Of a stretch of 64,000 bases of DNA, positions 12,107 to 40,119 are shown piece after piece. Position 1 is the stretch's first letter; every line of letters begins with the position of its first letter. The translations under genes and the position numbers were made by a program. Source of the DNA: Chitinophagaceae bacterium (GTDB lineage: Bacteria > Bacteroidota > Bacteroidia > Chitinophagales > UBA10324); contig CANIPU010000009.1 of the NCBI GenBank assembly GCA_947469485.1, positions 1 through 64,000 on the forward strand, in the 5' to 3' direction. The notes under the pieces were generated by a model that saw only the letters and a list, made by a program, of their open reading frames with translations, was not told the origin of the DNA and ran no database searches.

Positions 12107-12847
12107 TTAAATAACTTTTGCTTCGTTATGAAGTAATGAAATCAACTCTCCAACATTGTCAGGACTAATTAATTTAACTCCTGTTTTTTCTTTTGGTAAT
12201 TCATAAGAAAGAATAGAGGTGTGATTTTCGTTTGCAGACGCGGCAACAACTGCAACAGGTTTGGTTCTGGCAGCCATGATTCCACGCATATTAGGAATAC
12301 GAGCCTCTGCCATTCCTTTAGCAGCACTTAGCACAAAAGGAATACTTGCCTCAACTGTTTCATGTCCTCCGGCTATTTCACGATTCAGTGTTGCAACCGT
12401 TCCATTTAATTCCAGACTTGAAGCAAGGGAAACATATCCCCAATCAAGCAACCCCGCAATCATACCTCCGACTTCAGAACCATTATAGTCAATTGTTTCC
12501 TTCCCACATAAAACAATGTCGTAGGGATTGGCTTTTACATATTCTGCTATTTGTTTTGCAACAAACATTGCATCAACAGGTTCAGCATCAATTCTAACGG
12601 CATCATCTGCACCAATTGCTAAAGCCTTACGAATAATTGCATCTGTATCTGCAGCACCAACATTTATTACCGTTACTGAACCTCCAAGTTTTTCTTTAAG
12701 TTCCAATGCGCGAACAAGTGCATACCATTCATCGTATGGGTTTACTATGAAAACGACTTTATCGTTATTAAACTTCGTATTGTTATCAATGAAAGCAATC
12801 TTGGTAGTAGTATCGGGAGCTTTGCTTATACAAACTAAAAACTTCAT
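12107..12847 (-). CDS. etfB: Electron transfer flavoprotein, beta subunit
   Basis: EtfB pairs with EtfA and in most ETFs holds AMP. The 246-residue protein shows the family pattern: MKFLVCISKAPDTTTKI at the start, NPYDEWYALVRALELKE near 38-53, the loop CGKETIDYNGSEVGGMIAGL near 115-134 and the signature AEARIPNMRGIMAAR near 180. The length is normal. It is the first gene of the minus unit etfB-etfA-(BFN)-(arfB)-(PLP enzyme), and a well-spaced promoter lies about 50 bases upstream. Confidence 0.96.
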   Translation of the reverse strand: MKFLVCISKAPDTTTKIAFIDNNTKFNNDKVVFIVNPYDEWYALVRALELKEKLGGSVTVINVGAADTDAIIRKALAIGADDAVRIDAEPVDAMFVAKQIAEYVKANPYDIVLCGKETIDYNGSEVGGMIAGLLDWGYVSLASSLELNGTVATLNREIAGGHETVEASIPFVLSAAKGMAEARIPNMRGIMAARTKPVAVVAASANENHTSILSYELPKEKTGVKLISPDNVGELISLLHNEAKVI

Positions 12848-12895
12848 GTGTAATTTATTAAATGCAGTGAGTGAAAACTGCTATTATGAGGGGCG

Positions 12896-12925
12896 TAAAA
12901 ATAACTGAAAAGTATTATGGGCAAA
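12896..12925 (-). promoter_or_regulatory. Candidate etfB promoter
   Basis: On the minus strand TTTG (12925-12922), an 18-base spacer and TATTTTTA (12903-12896) fit TTTG-N18-TAnnTTTR, the same geometry as the rpsP promoter. The predicted leader is about 40 bases. Confidence 0.5.
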
Positions 12926-13036
12926 ACGATTAAAACAGAATTAAACACTGCCGGAAGTTAATAAACAATACAATTGTATTTATTGGTTAGGAATGATAAA
13001 TATCCCGGAATAAGAAATTACTAAACCTGGTAAAAT

Positions 13037-13462
13037 TTAATTCTTTATGAAATGAATTTCAGTAATTGAACCGGAATTATCATTCTGAAGAATAATTGTT
13101 GAATTTTCAGTAGAAGTGACTCTCCAATTCTTATTTAAATATGGCATTGGACTATTTCCGCTTATTGAAATATTCAATATTGAAGCGCTGTTTTCATTAG
13201 TCCATGACCCCATGCTATTTTCTGTTGCAGTTGATGCAATCATTTTCCCACTTGTTAAAAATGAAAAAGTGTACCCTTCAAAATTTGAAGACCGATCATT
13301 TCCGGCCTCTGAACAATAAATTATTTTCCAAGCTGAAGAGGTGAGCAATTCGGTTAACGAAAAATTTGGATTCGCATCTGTGTCCGGTTTGTTGCATGAT
13401 GAAAAAGCTAATATTACAAATAATGCGAAAAGTACAAATGGGTTTGGGAAGTGCTTTTTCAT
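13037..13462 (-). CDS. Small lipoprotein, lipocalin-like
   Basis: The 141-residue protein has a lipoprotein signal (FALFVILAFSSC, acylated Cys at 23). The mature part has the layout of lipocalin-like small lipoproteins common in Bacteroidota: a LLTSSAWKIIYC first strand, FEGYTFSFLTSGKMIAS, the GSWTNENSASILNIS strand and a final STIILQNDNSGSITEIHFIK. It is probably anchored in the outer membrane facing the periplasm. No ligand or activity can be named. It stands alone, with 190 bases to etfB and a featureless 217-base gap behind its start. The family assignment is tentative. Confidence 0.7.
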   Translation of the reverse strand: MKKHFPNPFVLFALFVILAFSSCNKPDTDANPNFSLTELLTSSAWKIIYCSEAGNDRSSNFEGYTFSFLTSGKMIASTATENSMGSWTNENSASILNISISGNSPMPYLNKNWRVTSTENSTIILQNDNSGSITEIHFIKN

Positions 13463-13679
13463 AATTGATAAATGTTTAATGAAAGGGCCTTATGTTTTTA
13501 TTATTGATTCGAAATATCTATTCACCACAATACTTATTAAACTAAAAGACTCCAAACAGGAATTAATTGGCGCTGAACCGGAAATTTTGAATTTTTCTAT
13601 TCACTTATTAAACATTAAAATATTAACCCAATAAAAATATTCAGTGATACGGATACAGCAATTATTATTGCAGTAAGTA

Positions 13680-14000
13680 ATGAGCAGAATAGAACAGCTA
13701 CAAAAATTTATTGAACAGGATGCCTCTGATGTGTTTTCAAGATATGCACTTGGTCTTGAATATGTTAAACTGGAGAAGCTGACTGAAGCTGAAAAATGCT
13801 TTCAATTTCTATTTGTTCATCATCCAACATATGTTGGCACTTATTATCAACTCGGAAAGCTTTTACAAAAACTGGGCAAGGAAGAAGAAGCAAAATCTGT
13901 TTTTAAAAAAGGAATGCTCCTGACACAAAAATCAGATGCAAAAACATATAGTGAACTTCAAAATGCATTAACAAATCTCGAGTTAGGATTAGAAGATTAA
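13680..14000 (+). CDS. Tetratricopeptide-repeat protein
   Basis: This 106-residue cytoplasmic protein is made of about two and a half TPR units: an N-terminal helix pair (IEQLQKFIEQDASDVFSRYA), LGLEYVKLEKLTEAEKCFQF at about 28-47 and YYQLGKLLQKLGKEEEAKSV at about 59-78. TPRs bind other proteins; the partner is unknown. It has no signal peptide. It is a lone plus-strand gene convergent with an L,D-transpeptidase-like gene. An 18-base AT-rich inverted repeat overlaps its stop codon (13998-14015) but lacks a T-tract. Confidence 0.8.
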   Translation: MSRIEQLQKFIEQDASDVFSRYALGLEYVKLEKLTEAEKCFQFLFVHHPTYVGTYYQLGKLLQKLGKEEEAKSVFKKGMLLTQKSDAKTYSELQNALTNLELGLED

Positions 14001-14022
14001 GAATTTCAATTCTTAGATATTA

Positions 14023-14661
14023 TCAATTTACCATCCAAAGCAAAACAGGTTTACCAGAAGCTTGAAGCATGGAATCCAATTTTATCATAAACTCATTACT
14101 TACAGCAGGGCAACCCCAGCTTTCAGGCGCGCCGACAGGAAATATTTCCTTATCGGGTACTGCATCCCAAGAATGGAGCACGATGGTTCTTTTCAACGCA
14201 TTGGAGTTACTACTATCTAATCCATGCAACAGATATTTTACATGCATGCCCCACTGACTATATCCGCGATCGCTTACCTTGTATTTTCCGAGTGATGAAC
14301 AATGACTTTCGCACACATTGCTGAACTGCGGACTGGTACTACTGGCATCGCTGCTCCAACCATTGCTTCCGCAACCATGAGTTACCAATGCCTTTTGTGT
14401 AACTTTCTGTTTGCTGAAATCCCAAACCATGAATCGGTTTTTACCAGAATGAATACTCATATCCACTACGAAATAAAATGTTGTGTCAAAATTTAATTTC
14501 TTGCAATGAGAAAAGGCCCGTGAGCTTAATTCGTTATATTTTAAACCATCATCAATAACTGCATTTTTATTTGCAGTGCCATTGCTGCAGGAATAAACAA
14601 TCAGTAACTGAAAGAATACAATAATTATAATCTGATAGGTTTTAAAAACCAACTGATTCAT
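14023..14661 (-). CDS. Murein L,D-transpeptidase-like lipoprotein (YkuD_2 family)
   Basis: The 212-residue protein begins with a hydrophobic signal and a likely lipobox (IVYSC, Cys25). The rest matches the L,D-transpeptidase catalytic domain of the YkuD_2 type, with THGCGSNGWSS at about 94-104, the catalytic histidine in VLHSW (H163) and the nucleophile in SWGCPAVS (Cys184). The LGKYKVSDRGYSQWGMHVKY stretch precedes them. Such enzymes cross-link or modify peptidoglycan; here it would face the periplasm as a lipoprotein. The assignment of the fold is good; the exact cell-wall reaction is not known. Confidence 0.87.
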   Translation of the reverse strand: MNQLVFKTYQIIIIVFFQLLIVYSCSNGTANKNAVIDDGLKYNELSSRAFSHCKKLNFDTTFYFVVDMSIHSGKNRFMVWDFSKQKVTQKALVTHGCGSNGWSSDASSTSPQFSNVCESHCSSLGKYKVSDRGYSQWGMHVKYLLHGLDSSNSNALKRTIVLHSWDAVPDKEIFPVGAPESWGCPAVSNEFMIKLDSMLQASGKPVLLWMVN

Positions 14662-34543: not shown

Positions 34544-36943
34544 TCAAGTAAATTTTTGCCGTTTTGCTATTATATAAACAAAAACATAAGATAAAATTAT
34601 TACGGTAAACGCTGATACAGGCATAAGTATCGCAGCTACTAAAGGAGATAATACTCCCTTCACTGCAAATGAAATCCCTACAACATTATATATAAGTGAT
34701 ATAACAAATATCACCTTGATAATCTTTAAGCCTGATCTTGTAAAACGCAAAATTTCCGGTAAACGCTCTACAATTTTTCCGTCCATAATAACATCAGATG
34801 CCGGTGTAAAATGTGTAATTTTATCTGTTATTGAAATTCCTGCATCAGCTTGTTGCAAAGCTCCTGCATCGTTCAGCCCATCACCAGCCATCACAACTTT
34901 TTTACCTTTCTTTTGTAAATATTCAATGAACTTAAGCTTATCAGCAGGAGATTGATTGAATTTCATTTCATCTTGACTATAAAATTCAGACAAGAATTTT
35001 TTGTCGGCATCATTATCACCTGATAACAAGAATAAAGAAAATCTGTTTCTTAATCTGTTCATTAATTCGCTAAGACCTTTCCTATATAATTGTTTAAAAG
35101 AAAAGTATCCATGAACTTCGTTTTCAATTTTAACGAAAACTGTTTGATTGTTAATGAGAATTCTCTTTTCAGCTCCGACAAAAGCCGCAGAACCCAACAT
35201 GACTTTCTTTCCTTCTACAATTCCAGTAATTCCGTTTCCAGGTGTTTCAACAAAGTCGCGCACTTTTTTAACACCAAAATTTTTCAGACTTTCATACATT
35301 GTTCTGCTAAGGGGATGTGAAGATTGATATGTCAGAGATGCAATGATTGATTTCTGATCTGTTGTTAATTCATCTCCAACAAAATTCAAATCTGATTCAT
35401 CCTGCAATGAAAGTGTTCCTGTTTTATCAAATACAATTGAATCGCATTTTGCCAGAGTTTCTATTACAGCACTATTTTTTACATAGAAACCTGTACGACC
35501 AAGAAAACGAACTACATGACCCATTGTAAACGGAACGGTAATAGCCAAAGCACATGGACAAGCAATAATTAAAACTGCAGTTAAAGCCTGAATTGCTGTT
35601 TTTATATTTTGAGGATACCAGTAAACAAAGGATGTAACTGCAATTAATATTATAACTATTGTAAAGTATTTAGAAATAGTATCTGCCAAACGCGAAATAT
35701 TTTCACCTTTCTTTTTTGTGAATGCATCATTGTTCCAAAGTCTTGTGAGATAACTCTGTGAAACAGTTTGAGAAACTTCCAACTCTATTGCAGAGCCCTT
35801 TTGCCTCCCCCCTGCATAAATGGAATCACCTTTCTTTTTCAAAACAGGCAACGATTCTCCTGTAACAAAACTGTAGTCAATTGAAGCGTGCGGACTTAAT
35901 AAAATTGCATCAGCAGGAATTACTTCTTCGCTATGAATAATAATTTTATCTGTAGGTTTTAGCTTGCTTACCGCAATCGAATTAGTACCTTCTTTACCTT
36001 TTAATTGAACTGCCAGCGGGAAGTATGACTTATAATCTCTTTCGAACGAAAGCGTTTCATAGGTTTTATTCTGAAAAAATCTGCCGAGCAATAAAAAGAA
36101 AATTAAACCACACATTGAATCAAAATATCCTGCACCTGTGTGTGTAATGATTTCAAAACTACTACGAGAAAGCATTGCTAATATTCCCAATGCAATAGGT
36201 AAATCAATATTGAAATACTTTTCGCGCAAACCTTTATAGGCATTTACAAAATAATCCTGCGCTCCATAAACTACAACAGGTATAGCGAGAATCAGATTCA
36301 GGTAACCGAATAAACTTTTCCAGACTGAAGACAAATCATTTTCACCTGCAAGATATTCCGGAAACGAAAGCAGCATAATATTTCCAAAAGCAAATCCTGT
36401 TAATCCAATCTGATAAATTAATCGTCTTGATGTAGTCCTTTTTCCCTTGTTTTCAAGAGCATCCATACTTAATTCAGGTTCATAACCCAATCGAACCATT
36501 AATTCAACTACTTCTCTCAAAGAAGTTTCTTGGTGTATGAAATTAATTGTGACTTCCTTTTTAAGAAAATTCACCTCACTTTTCATTACACCTTTATTAA
36601 GAGTATGCAACCGTTCCAATAAATAAATACAACTGCTGCAATGAATTCTGGGAATTGAAAACTGAACAACAGCATTTTTATTGTCCTTAAATCGATATAA
36701 ATGACTGGCAACAGAGTTATCATCTAAAAATGCAAACCGCCCGTTAGAAGAAGCTTTAACTTTAACCCCGGATTTTTCATTTAGAGAATAATATGAACAC
36801 AAATTATTTTCATCCAGTAATTCAAAAACAAGTTTACATCCCTCACAACAAAAATCCTTATCCTTCAAATGTATTGGGTCACCGAAACACTTATCTCCAC
36901 AGTGATAGCAAATTTTTGCTTCTACTTTCTGAACGGGGATCAT
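34544..36943 (-). CDS. ccoI: Heavy-metal P-type ATPase of the CcoI/FixI type
   Basis: The ATG at 36943 is preferred to a TTG at 36967. The 799-residue protein starts with a cysteine-rich metal-binding domain (CYHCG and CCEGC, residues 12-36), then an HMA-like domain with IHCSSC (Cys102, Cys105), eight expected membrane helices, TGES, the ion-path motif CPC (462-464), the phosphorylated Asp506 in FDKTGTLS, and GDGLNDAGAL. This N-terminal arrangement is that of CcoI/FixI, which supplies copper for cbb3-type cytochrome oxidase. No ccoNOPS genes are present here. It is divergent from a Crp/Fnr-type regulator, with a TGAT-N4-ATCA palindrome 45 bases before its start. Confidence 0.86.
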   Translation of the reverse strand: MIPVQKVEAKICYHCGDKCFGDPIHLKDKDFCCEGCKLVFELLDENNLCSYYSLNEKSGVKVKASSNGRFAFLDDNSVASHLYRFKDNKNAVVQFSIPRIHCSSCIYLLERLHTLNKGVMKSEVNFLKKEVTINFIHQETSLREVVELMVRLGYEPELSMDALENKGKRTTSRRLIYQIGLTGFAFGNIMLLSFPEYLAGENDLSSVWKSLFGYLNLILAIPVVVYGAQDYFVNAYKGLREKYFNIDLPIALGILAMLSRSSFEIITHTGAGYFDSMCGLIFFLLLGRFFQNKTYETLSFERDYKSYFPLAVQLKGKEGTNSIAVSKLKPTDKIIIHSEEVIPADAILLSPHASIDYSFVTGESLPVLKKKGDSIYAGGRQKGSAIELEVSQTVSQSYLTRLWNNDAFTKKKGENISRLADTISKYFTIVIILIAVTSFVYWYPQNIKTAIQALTAVLIIACPCALAITVPFTMGHVVRFLGRTGFYVKNSAVIETLAKCDSIVFDKTGTLSLQDESDLNFVGDELTTDQKSIIASLTYQSSHPLSRTMYESLKNFGVKKVRDFVETPGNGITGIVEGKKVMLGSAAFVGAEKRILINNQTVFVKIENEVHGYFSFKQLYRKGLSELMNRLRNRFSLFLLSGDNDADKKFLSEFYSQDEMKFNQSPADKLKFIEYLQKKGKKVVMAGDGLNDAGALQQADAGISITDKITHFTPASDVIMDGKIVERLPEILRFTRSGLKIIKVIFVISLIYNVVGISFAVKGVLSPLVAAILMPVSAFTVIILSYVFVYIIAKRQKFT

Positions 36944-36987
36944 AAAAATACTTTCATCAAAAATCAAAATAAATTATTGCATGATAC

Positions 36988-37001
36988 ATGATTTTTATCA
37001 A
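36988..37001. promoter_or_regulatory. FNR/Crp-like operator ATGAT-TTTT-ATCAA
   Basis: The inverted repeat TGAT-TTTT-ATCA sits in the gap between the copper ATPase and the Crp/Fnr-family regulator. It matches the FNR consensus TTGAT-N4-ATCAA at 9 of 10 fixed positions. The first 13 bases occur again at 38649-38661 before the persulfide dioxygenase gene. Confidence 0.5.
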
Positions 37002-37059
37002 TCAAAACCATAAAAACAAGACTCATATTGCATTTTTAATTCTTATTGCCGATTAATTT

Positions 37060-37089
37060 ATTGTTCAAACAGATTGTCTCTTAATTTTA
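37060..37089 (+). promoter_or_regulatory. Candidate promoter of the Crp/Fnr-family regulator
   Basis: ATTG (37060-37063), an 18-base spacer and TAATTTTA (37082-37089) fit the TTTG-N18-TAnnTTTR pattern with one mismatch in the -33 box. The predicted leader is about 12 bases to the TTG at 37108, which supports that unusual start codon. Confidence 0.48.
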
Positions 37090-37107
37090 CCAATTAATTC
37101 TAATAAT

Positions 37108-37734
37108 TTGATTAATACTCATACAGCTCAACCAAACCTGCAGCTTTCTGCCTCATTCAAAGAAAATCTGGAGAAATACGGATCAATGAAATCATTTAAG
37201 GAAGGCGATGTAATTCTTAACGAAAATTCATATATAAAATCAATTCCTTTTGTAAAGAAAGGGAGTATAAGAGTAATGCGAACAGATGATGAAGGAAGGG
37301 AGATTTTACTTTATTATATAAAAGCAGGAGAAAGCTGCATAATGTCATTTCTGGGCGGTATACATCAAGAAACAAGCAAGGTAAAAGCCATTGCTGAAGA
37401 AGATGTTGAGATCCAGTTTCTTCCGATAGAAAAACTGAATACCCTAATGAGGGAATCATCAGAATGGACCGACTATATATTCCGGCTTTATCATAAAAGA
37501 TTTGAAGAATTGCTGGAAGTAGTGAATGCTATAGCGTTTAAAAAAATGGATGAGCGAATTTTGAATTTTCTGGAAGAAAAGAAAAAGATGAATGGTTCAA
37601 ATGAAATTAATATCACCCATCAGCAATTATCCGAAGAACTGGGAACTGCCAGAGTAGTTGTTTCAAGGTTGTTGAAACAAATGGAGTTAAATGGAACAGT
37701 CAAATTGTTCCGGAATAAAATTTTGCTTGTGTAA
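37108..37734 (+). CDS. Crp/Fnr-family transcriptional regulator
   Basis: The 208-residue protein has the cyclic-nucleotide-like sensor barrel (about 20-120: FKEGDVILNENSYIKSIPFV, EGREILLYYIKAGESCIMSF), the long dimer helix (about 125-150) and a winged helix (THQQLSEELGTARVVVSRLL, about 165-184). It lacks the four cysteines of FNR; its only cysteine is Cys77 in AGESC, a place where a thiol could sense oxidants or persulfide. The cAMP-pocket RxS motif is also absent. A TTG is the only fitting start near a promoter. It heads a run of sulfur-transfer genes and is divergent from the copper ATPase, which suggests it controls one or both. Confidence 0.88.
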   Translation: MINTHTAQPNLQLSASFKENLEKYGSMKSFKEGDVILNENSYIKSIPFVKKGSIRVMRTDDEGREILLYYIKAGESCIMSFLGGIHQETSKVKAIAEEDVEIQFLPIEKLNTLMRESSEWTDYIFRLYHKRFEELLEVVNAIAFKKMDERILNFLEEKKKMNGSNEINITHQQLSEELGTARVVVSRLLKQMELNGTVKLFRNKILLV

Positions 37735-37796
37735 CATTTGTTGCCAACTATTGGTTTTCACTGATTGAAATTTGCAGTACAAAAAAAACAATCATT

Positions 37797-38006
37797 ATGA
37801 AAACAAACATGGGAACCACAGATCGTATCTTGAGATTATTAGTTGCTGTAATCGTTGCAATTCTTTATGCTACAGATCAAATTACAGGAGCAACTGCCGT
37901 AATTCTTTTAATTCTTTCCGGAGTTTTTATTCTCACAAGTTTTATGAGTTTTTGTCCGTTGTATTTGCCTTTTGGAATAAGTACCAAAAAGAACACAGTT
38001 AAATAA
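37797..38006 (+). CDS. DUF2892 (YgaP-type) small membrane protein
   Basis: The 69-residue protein starts MKTNMGTTDRILRLLVAVIV and has two membrane helices (LLVAVIVAILYATDQI and AVILLILSGVFILTSFMSF) followed by CPLYLPFGI, the DUF2892 pattern. In YgaP of enteric bacteria the same helix pair is fused to a rhodanese domain. Here separate rhodanese genes follow directly, so the membrane part and the sulfur-transfer part appear split. It may anchor or interact with the rhodaneses at the inner membrane; this is inference. Overlapping frames in the same region are shadows. Confidence 0.88.
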   Translation: MKTNMGTTDRILRLLVAVIVAILYATDQITGATAVILLILSGVFILTSFMSFCPLYLPFGISTKKNTVK

Positions 38007-38047
38007 TTCAATTAGAATTTCATTTTAAAATTTACATTTTAATTCAA

Positions 38048-38338
38048 ATGAACATAGAAAAAATAAACAATGCCTACATTGTAGATGTCAGAACTCCCGG
38101 AGAATTTTCAATGGGACATGTTACAGGATCAATTAATATTCCGCTTAATGAATTACCGGAAAGAATCGAAGAGCTGAAATCAATGAACGGAAAAATCATT
38201 TTATGTTGTGCCTCCGGAAACCGCAGCGGTCAGGCACATAGATACTTAATTCAAAATGGTTTTAACGAAGTTCATAATGGAGGTTCGTGGTTAGATGTAG
38301 AATATGAATTTATTAACTCAACAAATAATAATAATTAA
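38048..38338 (+). CDS. Single-domain rhodanese-like sulfurtransferase (first of a tandem pair)
   Basis: Rhodaneses carry sulfane sulfur on an active cysteine. The 96-residue protein has YIVDVRTPGEFSMGHVTGSI and the active loop CCASGNRS with Cys54 as the likely persulfide carrier (CxxxxR). It ends NEVHNGGSWLDVEYE. It has no signal peptide. Its stop codon overlaps the start of the second rhodanese (TAATG), so translation is coupled. The two proteins are clearly related (shared DVR, INIPLN, CCASG and EVHNGGSW motifs), so this is a tandem duplication. It sits between the DUF2892 gene and the persulfide dioxygenase. Confidence 0.92.
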   Translation: MNIEKINNAYIVDVRTPGEFSMGHVTGSINIPLNELPERIEELKSMNGKIILCCASGNRSGQAHRYLIQNGFNEVHNGGSWLDVEYEFINSTNNNN

Positions 38339-38652
38339 TGATAGCAACTATTAAAAGCCTGCTTGGTTTTGGCCCAAAAGCTGATTTTGAAAAACTCTTG
38401 AATGAAGGTGCGGTAATTTTAGATGTTCGCACTAAAGCCGAATATTCAGGTGGACATGTAAAAGGCTCGTTGAACATTCCGCTTAATAATCTCTCCGCGA
38501 GTTTATCGAAGTTAAAAAAGGATAAACCAATTATAACCTGTTGCGCATCAGGTATGAGAAGCGCATCTGCAAAAAGCATTTTAAAATCAGAAGGATTTAA
38601 AGAAGTTCACAATGGAGGAAGCTGGATGAACCTTCGGAAATTTTCTAAATGA
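38338..38652 (+). CDS. Single-domain rhodanese-like sulfurtransferase (second of a tandem pair)
   Basis: The 104-residue protein has a short extra N-terminus (MIATIKSLLGFGPKADFEKL) and then the rhodanese core: VILDVRTKAEYSGGHVKGSL, the active loop CCASGMRS with Cys69, and EVHNGGSWMNLRKFSK. It is cytoplasmic, with no signal. It overlaps the previous rhodanese gene by one base and its stop codon lies inside a candidate FNR/Crp-like operator before the persulfide dioxygenase. The pair could pass sulfur between a donor and the dioxygenase fusion downstream. Confidence 0.92.
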   Translation: MIATIKSLLGFGPKADFEKLLNEGAVILDVRTKAEYSGGHVKGSLNIPLNNLSASLSKLKKDKPIITCCASGMRSASAKSILKSEGFKEVHNGGSWMNLRKFSK

Positions 38653-38662
38653 TTTTTATCAG
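38649..38662. promoter_or_regulatory. Second FNR/Crp-like operator ATGAT-TTTT-ATCAG
   Basis: TGAT-TTTT-ATCA again, identical over 13 bases to the site at 36988-37000. It lies 66 bases before the persulfide dioxygenase ATG and overlaps the stop codon of the second rhodanese gene. This supports a shared regulator for the cluster. Confidence 0.47.
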
Positions 38663-38727
38663 AAGAATAGAATTTGCTGAGTTTAATATTTGCACCAAGT
38701 AATTGAAACAACTCAAAAAATAAATTT

Positions 38728-40119
38728 ATGTTCATTAAACAACTCTACACTAATTGCCTTGCCGAAGCTGCTTATTATATTGAATCAAATGGCGAAGCTG
38801 CTGTAATTGACCCCATTCGTGAAACAGCCCCTTACATTCAGTTAGCTGAAGAGCGTGGTGCAAAAATCAAATACATTTTCGAAACACATTTTCATGCTGA
38901 CTTTGTAAGCGGACATATTGATTTAGCAAAAAAGACCGGAGCAAAAATAATTTTCGGTCCCGGAGCCCAGGCGAAGTTTGAAATTTACAATGCTGCTGAT
39001 AACGAAGTATTCCCATTGGGAAAAATTTCAATTCAAGCTATTCATACACCTGGTCACACACCTGAAAGCACGAGCTATCTGCTGCTCGATGAAAACGGAA
39101 ACGAGCATGCACTCTTCAGTGGCGATGCACTTTTTGTTGGCGATGTGGGGCGCCCTGATTTACTGGATGGAGTTATCATTTCGAAAGAAGAGCAATCGAA
39201 TACTTTGTACGACACACTTAACAATAAAATAAAAACACTGCCCGACCATGTTATTGTTTATCCTGGTCATGGGCCAGGTTCTATGTGTGGTAAAAGCATT
39301 GGAAAAGAAACTGAGAGTACAATTGGAAAAGAAAAGCTGACGAACTATGCTCTTCAACCCATGAGCCGCGAAGAGTTTATGCATGTAATTTTAGCTGACC
39401 AGATTCCGGCGCCTAAGTATTTTGTAAAGAATGCAATAATTAACAGGAACGGTTACGAAAATATTGATGAAGTAATGACGCGCAATGGTCGTGCTCTGAG
39501 TGTTGATGAAGTTAAAAAAGAAATTTCAGCAGGTGCCTTAGTTATTGATGCAAGAAAAGCAGATGATTTTGAAAAAGGTTTTATTAAAGGTGCTATTAAC
39601 ATTGGTATGGATGATTCCTTTGCTGTATGGGCTGGGACTTTAATTGATATCAATCAACGAATAATAATTGTTGCTGAGGCAGACAGGGAGAAGGAAGCCA
39701 TTTTAAGGCTTGCAAGAGTGGGAATGGAAAATGTTGCCGGATTTTTAAATGGCGGAATTCAAAGTTGGTTAGCAGCTGGTGAACCGATTGAAAAAATTGA
39801 ATCAATCAACGCTGACGAATTCGCTCATCAATACAAGGAAGGCAGGGGCATTACACTCGATGTGCGCCGTGTGGCTGAATTTAATGCTGGGCATTTGCAC
39901 GAAGCCAACAACATTCCATTGCGCGATTTGGAAAACAGGTTAAATGAATTGAATGATAAGGCCGAATTTTTAATTCATTGCGCCGGGGGGTACCGTTCAA
40001 TGATTGCAGCATCAATAATGAAGAAGCATGGCTTTAACAGGATAATAAATGTGCAAGGTGGGTTTAATAAAATTAAAGAAACCGGATTATCGCTTGAAAA
40101 ATCAATTTTAGTTAGTTGA
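38728..40119 (+). CDS. Persulfide dioxygenase fused to two rhodanese domains
   Basis: The 463-residue protein starts with a metallo-beta-lactamase fold of the persulfide dioxygenase (ETHE1/CstB) kind: THFHADFVSGH (H54, H56, D58, H63), HTPGHTPES (H110), FSGDALFVGDVGRPDL (D133) and YPGHGPGSMCGKS (H181). This oxidises glutathione or protein persulfide to sulfite. A rhodanese domain at about 260-355 has Ala316 where the active Cys should be (VAEADRE), so it cannot carry persulfide. The last domain (362-460) has an intact loop HCAGGYRS (Cys418). CstB-like proteins elsewhere act in sulfide detoxification. A bidirectional terminator follows. Confidence 0.92.
   Translation: MFIKQLYTNCLAEAAYYIESNGEAAVIDPIRETAPYIQLAEERGAKIKYIFETHFHADFVSGHIDLAKKTGAKIIFGPGAQAKFEIYNAADNEVFPLGKISIQAIHTPGHTPESTSYLLLDENGNEHALFSGDALFVGDVGRPDLLDGVIISKEEQSNTLYDTLNNKIKTLPDHVIVYPGHGPGSMCGKSIGKETESTIGKEKLTNYALQPMSREEFMHVILADQIPAPKYFVKNAIINRNGYENIDEVMTRNGRALSVDEVKKEISAGALVIDARKADDFEKGFIKGAINIGMDDSFAVWAGTLIDINQRIIIVAEADREKEAILRLARVGMENVAGFLNGGIQSWLAAGEPIEKIESINADEFAHQYKEGRGITLDVRRVAEFNAGHLHEANNIPLRDLENRLNELNDKAEFLIHCAGGYRSMIAASIMKKHGFNRIINVQGGFNKIKETGLSLEKSILVS

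Follow-up and report, generated by a model that had tools for sequence, protein, structure and literature searches.

A proposed pair of interleaved Crp/Fnr-type operator systems at a copper ATPase and sulfur-transfer locus of a Chitinophagaceae bacterium

Two copies of a 13-base sequence, ATGATTTTTATCA, stand around a sulfur-transfer gene cluster in a 64,000-nucleotide stretch of a Chitinophagaceae genome (GenBank assembly GCA_947469485.1, contig CANIPU010000009.1, positions 1 to 64,000; hereafter the window, meaning this entire stretch). Which regulator reads these sites, and which genes does it control? A preliminary description, made from the sequence alone, assigned both sites to the Crp/Fnr-family regulator encoded beside the first of them. 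We consider it likely that the locus instead holds two interleaved Crp/Fnr-superfamily operator systems, with TGAT-N4-ATCA belonging to a respiratory regulator with a Glu-type recognition helix and GTAAC-N4-GTTAC to the adjacent regulator. The earlier assignment is most likely wrong, given the regulator's own GTAAC palindrome at 37731-37744, the Val at position 183 of its recognition helix, and the occurrence of TGAT-N4-ATCA boxes near ccoI and ccoN away from the regulator. Motif positions, spacing, conservation, the covariation of helix and operator, and the dioxygenase operator were compared in sequence; what we propose about binding, activation, signals and the acting Glu-type regulator is deduced from these comparisons.

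The repeated motif and its promoter spacing

The repeat is exact, as the preliminary description had it: the 13-mer, with TGAT-N4-ATCA inside, lies at 36988-37000 and 38649-38661, and no third copy occurs across the 64-kb window. The exact pair had a mean of 0.03 in shuffled sequence, and two copies were reached in none of 100 shuffles. The core alone occurs 6 times in the window compared to 3.1 expected (at least 6 in 14 of 100 shuffles) and 143 times in the 3.08 Mb of the genome, or once per 21.5 kb. Since the core is common, its counts provide no evidence, and spacing and conservation carry the case. The comparison with chance that had been suggested for the motif thus came out in favor of the exact pair and not of the core alone, which is not significantly enriched in the window. 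Over-representation in the window was rejected as evidence, and a reversed-pattern control for the core (21 versus 143) was left unused because that pattern, which contains TAG, is depleted for other reasons. The features of the locus are as follows (nt, nucleotides).

34544..36943, minus strand: ccoI, copper P-type ATPase of cbb3-oxidase assembly (PF12156, HMA, E1-E2 ATPase, HAD hydrolase; start codon inferred)
36958..36961, minus strand: TTTG of the -7 element facing ccoI, 36.5 nt from the center of site 1
36989..37000, no strand assigned: FNR-type operator 1 (site 1), TGATTTTTATCA, a conserved block in two congeners
37108..37734, plus strand: Crp/Fnr-superfamily regulator with a Val183 helix (ARVVVSR) and a single cysteine, Cys77 (PF00027, PF13545; start codon uncertain)
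37731..37744, plus strand: proposed operator of the adjacent regulator, GTAACATTTGTTGC, overlapping the regulator stop codon
37771..37774, plus strand: TTTG of the -7 element for the sulfur operon, 36.5 nt from the center of GTAACATTTGTTGC
37797..38006, plus strand: 69-residue YgaP-like membrane protein (YgaP-TM; PF11127, E = 5.8e-21)
38048..38338, plus strand: rhodanese 1 (PF00581)
38338..38652, plus strand: rhodanese 2 (PF00581)
38650..38661, no strand assigned: FNR-type operator 2 (site 2), TGATTTTTATCA, overlapping and including the TGA stop codon of rhodanese 2; identical in two congeners
38689..38692, plus strand: TTTG of the -7 element facing the dioxygenase, 36.5 nt from the center of site 2
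38728..40119, plus strand: metallo-beta-lactamase/rhodanese/rhodanese protein, putative persulfide dioxygenase (PDO; PF00753, and PF00581 in two stretches)

The CcoI product has PF12156 and the P-type ATPase domains, with HMA at 23.9 bits, just below its cut-off of 24.8. The PDO product has the metallo-beta-lactamase fold and rhodanese domains of its class and is putative by domains; no NCBIfam equivalog cut-off was reached among the matches listed.

Calling the motif FNR-type (TTGAT-N4-ATCAA) fits the data. The core is exact at both sites and the outer bases are imperfect; read toward ccoI, site 1 is TTGATAAAAATCAT, a 9/10 match to the consensus. Together with the spacing and the conserved islands described below, this suggests that the motif is probably functional. 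Flavobacterial promoters carry TAnnTTTG at -12 to -5 (PMC9723704). We searched the genome for TGAT-N4-ATCA followed by TTTG 14-42 nt on; on the plus strand the search counted only the shortest match, leaving the counts per gap slightly uneven. A gap of 27 nt held 14 of the 85 matches, compared to 2.5 on average and at most 5 at any of the other 28 gaps (Poisson P = 5e-7; 1.4e-5 when the two window sites are excluded). Both window sites show this gap, site 1 toward ccoI and site 2 toward the dioxygenase. It places the operator center 36.5 nt from the G of TTTG and therefore, at the predicted promoters, near -41.5, the position of a class II activator. Of 15 gap-27 sites examined (the 14 and one masked by a nearer TTTG), 10 were intergenic or at a gene edge, as were 6 of 11 sites with neighboring gaps, so that location alone does not separate the two groups.

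On the regulator side of site 1, no TTTG occurs at 14-42 nt in the window; one congener has TTTG there at gap 26. Judged by these predicted promoter elements, the spacing of site 1 suits ccoI and does not suit the regulator gene. Autoregulation through site 1 was rejected, the spacing in the window being wrong, and the regulator gene in the window has neither a TGAT nor a GTAAC box at class II distance. Among the targets named earlier, ccoI and the dioxygenase are therefore still likely, with gap 27 toward both, and the regulator gene itself is not.

Conservation is highest at the sites. In two congeners, whose regulators are 82% identical to that of the window, the gap between ccoI and the regulator gene is identical at 74 of 132 and 78 of 133 positions outside site 1, compared to 14 of 15 inside. 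The congener version of site 1 is ATGATTTTT[A/G]TCAAT, in which one half-site is degenerate. In the dioxygenase gap, TTTTTATCA is identical at 9 of 9 positions compared to 38 of 66 outside it. The motif also occurs near respiration genes. Of 14 readable ccoI homologues, the window included, 5 have TGAT-N4-ATCA no more than 350 nt away, and 8 of 14 ccoN homologues have it no more than 500 nt away; the density in the window genome predicts about 0.2-0.3 boxes per ccoI or ccoN set. The ccoI counts are out of 14 after exclusion of G002 and G027, where, as for the PDO of G001, a contig end cuts the locus. The two congeners, which are among the 14 ccoI homologues, have TTGAC-N4-ATCA at the aligned place. 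A box precedes ccoI about 1.3 kb away from the regulator gene in one relative (G033). By coordinates, ccoI adjoins ccoN in many relatives, and in the window genome ccoN sits on another contig. Two gap-27 sites of this genome stand at respiration genes, one between a cbb3 ccoNO gene and a UspA gene (C34) and one between a fasciclin gene, which adjoins a gene for an FNR-like protein, and a cytochrome c-nosZ operon (C6). In G004, a 1.6-kb stretch around ccoN and UspA, next to a kinase/REC-CRP pair, holds four boxes, and a fifth lies 1.4 kb off, inside the kinase gene. The cbb3 and nos genes are classical FNR/FixK targets.

A functionless chance repeat of the 13-mer in AT-rich DNA would be compatible with a core that is not significantly over-represented in the window and with gap-27 sites that fall inside genes (5 of 15). 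Such a repeat is very unlikely in view of the exact pair, never reached in 100 shuffles, the gap-27 enrichment, the conserved islands in otherwise diverged gaps, and the boxes near ccoI and ccoN homologues.

Three side observations concern these sites and genes. On the C6 contig, two TGAT-N4-ATCA sites (C6:11815 and C6:11836) are separated by 22 nt, one helical double turn, and stand between the fasciclin/FNR-like side and the cytochrome c-nosZ operon. Two others, 45 nt apart and neither at gap 27 (C4:14891 and C4:14936), lie where a TSUP-like gene ends, ahead of a YeeE-like gene, both named by eye. In one congener (G003), the ccoI homologue at C12:27113-29508 is split over two frames with internal stops, perhaps a decaying gene or an assembly error.

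The adjacent regulator and its own operator

The window regulator belongs to the Crp/Fnr superfamily: PF00027 and PF13545 score above cut-off, and its best solved-structure match is a Crp/Fnr protein. It lacks the [4Fe-4S] cysteines of FNR proper, Cys77 being the sole cysteine in its 208-residue frame, and it has Val183 at the recognition-helix position where FNR proper has Glu. An Arg in the phosphate-binding cassette (QERS in Crp) is a hallmark of cAMP-CRP; a HMMER alignment gives QETS in the window regulator. The absence of iron-sulfur cysteines was noted in the preliminary description and is confirmed here. Cys77 is invariant, being present in 80 of 80 among the named homologues that have a residue at that place and in 19 of 19 in a further comparison. 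A CC pair at 83-84 is added in 20 of the 80 homologues, and the window clade is without it. The segment around residues 77-84 reads ESCIMSFLGG in one clade and ESCSMAYSCC in another, and the CC pair may mean a different thiol chemistry. In a predicted structure (mean predicted local distance difference test score, pLDDT, 86.9), Cys77 directly precedes helix 78-85, and residue 183 is close to the beginning of helix 182-194. A thiol or persulfide signal for this regulator is plausible, persulfide being suggested because of the gene neighbors.

What would such a protein bind? In most relatives, a GTAAC-N4-GTTAC palindrome lies at class II distance, downstream of the regulator gene and upstream of the following one, which is often YgaP-TM, YeeE or TSUP; the window version is GTAACATTTGTTGC. 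We compared 190 loci, comprising 20 relatives, 80 named loci, and 30 and 60 further stretches (one search, that of the 30 loci, had matches in 173 of 295 genomes). The named loci are the best 80 of 586 confirmed stretches, and the search pattern admitted only Val or Glu at 183. Sixteen of the 190 were dropped, their regulator frame not being recognized, leaving 174 readable loci. Among the named loci, the 3' region scores at least 8/10 for the GTAAC palindrome in 55 of 80, compared to about 9 in shuffles. Upstream regions of the regulator genes reach this score in 10 of 80, and at least 9/10 in 6 of 80, with none at 10. An exact-dyad search without tolerance found GTAAC only weakly, in 4 of 80. 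The TAA stop codon does not explain the palindrome, since several loci have the site 8-111 nt beyond that codon. With a looser rule that leaves bases -5 and +5 free, 114 of 174 loci have the operator downstream of the regulator gene, and 100 of those have TTTG at 36.5 +/- 1 nt. The YgaP-like protein (PF11127) is present in 27 of the 80 named loci.

In the window's own genome, GTAAC-N4-GTNRC with TTTG at 25-27 nt has 5 matches compared to 3 for the reversed control. All three intergenic matches precede sulfur or thiol genes, namely the window sulfur operon, a rhodanese-thioredoxin lipoprotein (C7), and a small membrane protein with a thioredoxin (C18); the remaining two are inside unrelated genes.

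Residue 183 covaries with the operator. It is Val in 126 of the 174 loci, as in the window, and Glu in 48. Paired with the base at -5, the counts are Val/A 81, Val/T 4, Val/G 2, Glu/G 21 and Glu/A 6 (Fisher P = 3.5e-15); the named loci alone give 47, 2, 1, 4 and 0 in the same order. GTGA occurs in either operator half in 26 of 27 Glu-type loci, compared to 4 of 87 Val-type loci. In these comparisons, Val183 accompanies GTAAC and Glu183 accompanies GTGAC or GTGAT. Related loci are not independent, and a quick tree from which the helix was left out shows at least 7 changes of residue 183. In alignments, Val183 falls on the Glu of RETVGR in Crp and on the Val of RVTVTR in NtcA.

These counts bear on two further readings of the TGAT-N4-ATCA sites. 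In the first, which is the one originally proposed, the adjacent regulator binds both of them and controls itself, ccoI and the dioxygenase. Its gene is adjacent, the sites share the register of the family's operators, a GTGAT-N4-ATCAC site containing TGAT-N4-ATCA lies 3' of the regulator genes of two Glu-type relatives (G018 and G038), and the congener TTTG at gap 26 faces the regulator. We nevertheless consider this reading improbable, as the window regulator is Val-type with a GTAAC palindrome of its own, TGAT boxes stand near ccoI and ccoN away from the regulator, and none of 31 regulator-linked PDO genes outside the genus has a TGAT box. Equally doubtful is a second reading in which the TGAT sites are shared, with strong binding by Glu-type proteins and weak binding by the Val-type sulfur regulator, so that ccoI and the dioxygenase would integrate oxygen and sulfur signals. 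The equal half-site register and class II spacing would permit this, as would the G at -5 in 2 of 87 Val-type operators, but A occupies that position in 81 of the 87.

Dioxygenase promoters and candidate readers of TGAT-N4-ATCA

The dioxygenase genes of the window genus differ from others in their operator. In the 24 named loci with a PDO gene near the regulator, an operator by the loose rule lies within 160 nt in 23 (0.27 expected in shuffles). Strict GTRAC-N4-GTNRC is present in 22, TTTG lies at exactly 36.5 nt in 20, and the TGAT box occurs in none. Of seven other relatives, six, including one of the same family (G008), have the regulator-type operator at PDO, one has neither and none has the TGAT box; G013 and G006 were left out, their loci ending inside the gene. 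Outside the genus overall, the regulator-type operator is present at 29 of 31 readable PDO loci and TGAT-N4-ATCA at 0 of 31. In the window genus, all 3 PDO genes have TGAT-N4-ATCA (at -78 or -93) and none has GTRAC. The proposed scan of orthologues for TGAT-N4-ATCA found the box near some of the ccoI and ccoN homologues and near none of the regulator-linked PDO genes outside the genus. With the patterns used, neither operator was detected within 250 nt of a second PDO paralogue of this genome (C3:110348). The simplest reading is that control of PDO in the window genus moved from the sulfur regulator to a respiratory, FNR-type one, the sulfur regulator keeping the YgaP-TM/rhodanese operon. The 31 dioxygenases from outside the genus are 34-52% identical to that of the window, so replacement of gene and promoter together is as possible as mutation of the operator.

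Candidate readers of the TGAT sites are encoded elsewhere in the genome. Two other Crp-type regulators found there have Glu at the helix position, a REC-CRP fusion (TATESLIRTL), encoded near ccoN, and a Cys-rich FNR-like protein (ASIEEIIRTI), encoded near nosZ, whose Glu falls on the corresponding Glu of solved FNR in an alignment; a fourth HTH_Crp_2 match (C4) is DtxR-like by eye. In G003, which keeps the PDO box and whose assembly is 98% complete, REC-CRP was found, and no Cys-rich FNR-like protein or cbb3 ccoN was found, which favors REC-CRP as the reader. In G033, the box is present and neither type was found at E 0.001. The REC-CRP gene (C34:14231-15289) fuses a receiver domain to a full Crp-type regulator and adjoins a PAS histidine kinase (12275-14224), UspA and cbb3 genes; the pair resembles FixL, FixJ and FixK collapsed into two proteins, and frames of 340-398 residues like REC-CRP occur in many relatives. 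A lone 39-residue stretch at C34:4213-4329, possibly a remnant of a second copy, matches the C-terminus of the Cys-rich FNR-like protein (C6) with 87% identity.

Our interpretation is that a respiration- or oxygen-linked regulator with a Glu-type helix, possibly REC-CRP or the Cys-rich FNR-like protein, would bind TGAT-N4-ATCA as an FNR-type class II activator site. It would activate ccoI and also, through a separate promoter within the sulfur operon, the dioxygenase. The adjacent Val183 regulator would bind GTAACATTTGTTGC and activate the YgaP-TM/rhodanese/rhodanese operon, with persulfide acting on Cys77 as its probable signal. At the dioxygenase of the window genus, the GTAAC operator usual elsewhere would have been replaced by the FNR-type one.

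Several observations weigh against this interpretation. Five of the 15 gap-27 sites fall inside genes, and 7 of 14 ccoI and 6 of 14 ccoN homologues have no TGAT box. By the loose rule, 60 of 174 loci have no operator downstream of the regulator gene. Two Val-type loci have G at -5, and Val might tolerate G. Only five contrasts on the tree are supported, of which 3.7 (left half) to 4.6 (either half) agree and none opposes, a number that cannot by itself reach P 0.05. In addition, two locus pairs represent one genome each (L039/L170 and L125/L386).

Significance and relation to known systems

To our knowledge, redox and sulfur regulation in Bacteroidota is little mapped, and the sites described here offer testable DNA targets for two regulators of this phylum. 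The pairing of Val or Glu at 183 with A or G at -5 suggests a one-residue specificity rule that could be examined with mutants. The more interesting outcome is the second operator together with the exceptional dioxygenase promoter of the window genus, which would be a natural case of a detoxification enzyme changing its regulator. We would give even chances to a broader proposal, namely that a Crp-family sulfur regulator widespread in Bacteroidota, with an invariant Cys and an operator set by residue 183 (GTAAC-N4-GTTAC or GTGAC-N4-GTCAC), controls persulfide detoxification, and that the PDO of the window genus switched to an oxygen or respiration regulator by operator exchange at the same promoter position. 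If so, the exchange would couple sulfur detoxification to the high-affinity cbb3 oxidase, which H2S would poison. No report of this regulator/operator pair was found in the open-licence literature searched, though the phrase terms may miss "Crp/Fnr".

The TGAT sites resemble those of the FNR/FixK regulon in their TGAT-N4-ATCA core, their class II spacing, and their ccoI, cbb3 ccoNOP and nosZ neighbors. They differ in having a -7 box, TAnnTTTG, rather than a sigma70 -10 element, and in having a dioxygenase of sulfur metabolism as a likely target. The best solved match of the adjacent regulator is the Crp/Fnr-family structure 3dv8 (E = 1.9e-27), in which a Cys aligns with Cys77; it differs in its Glu-type helix, REVITR, and its entry listing names no function. 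A closer likeness in DNA recognition is to NtcA, for which a GTAN8TAC site at about -41.5 is described (PMC3898017). The helix RVxV[ST]R resembles RVTVTR, GTAAC-N4-GTTAC is itself a GTA-N8-TAC palindrome, and the class II position is the same. The window family differs from NtcA by its effector-domain residues, its sulfur rather than nitrogen gene neighbors, and its single invariant Cys77. The gene neighborhood recalls BigR and FisR, which are described as a repressor and a sigma54-dependent activator, respectively, of dioxygenase operons (PMC7315123, PMC5823870). There, too, a regulator stands beside dioxygenase, rhodanese and YeeE/YedE-type genes. On a possible induction of an oxygen-using dioxygenase by low oxygen, the related enzyme of the bigR operon is described as needed for growth under hypoxia (PMC5823870). 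Compared with BigR and FisR as described there, the window regulator differs in being a Crp/Fnr-superfamily protein with a predicted class II activator site.

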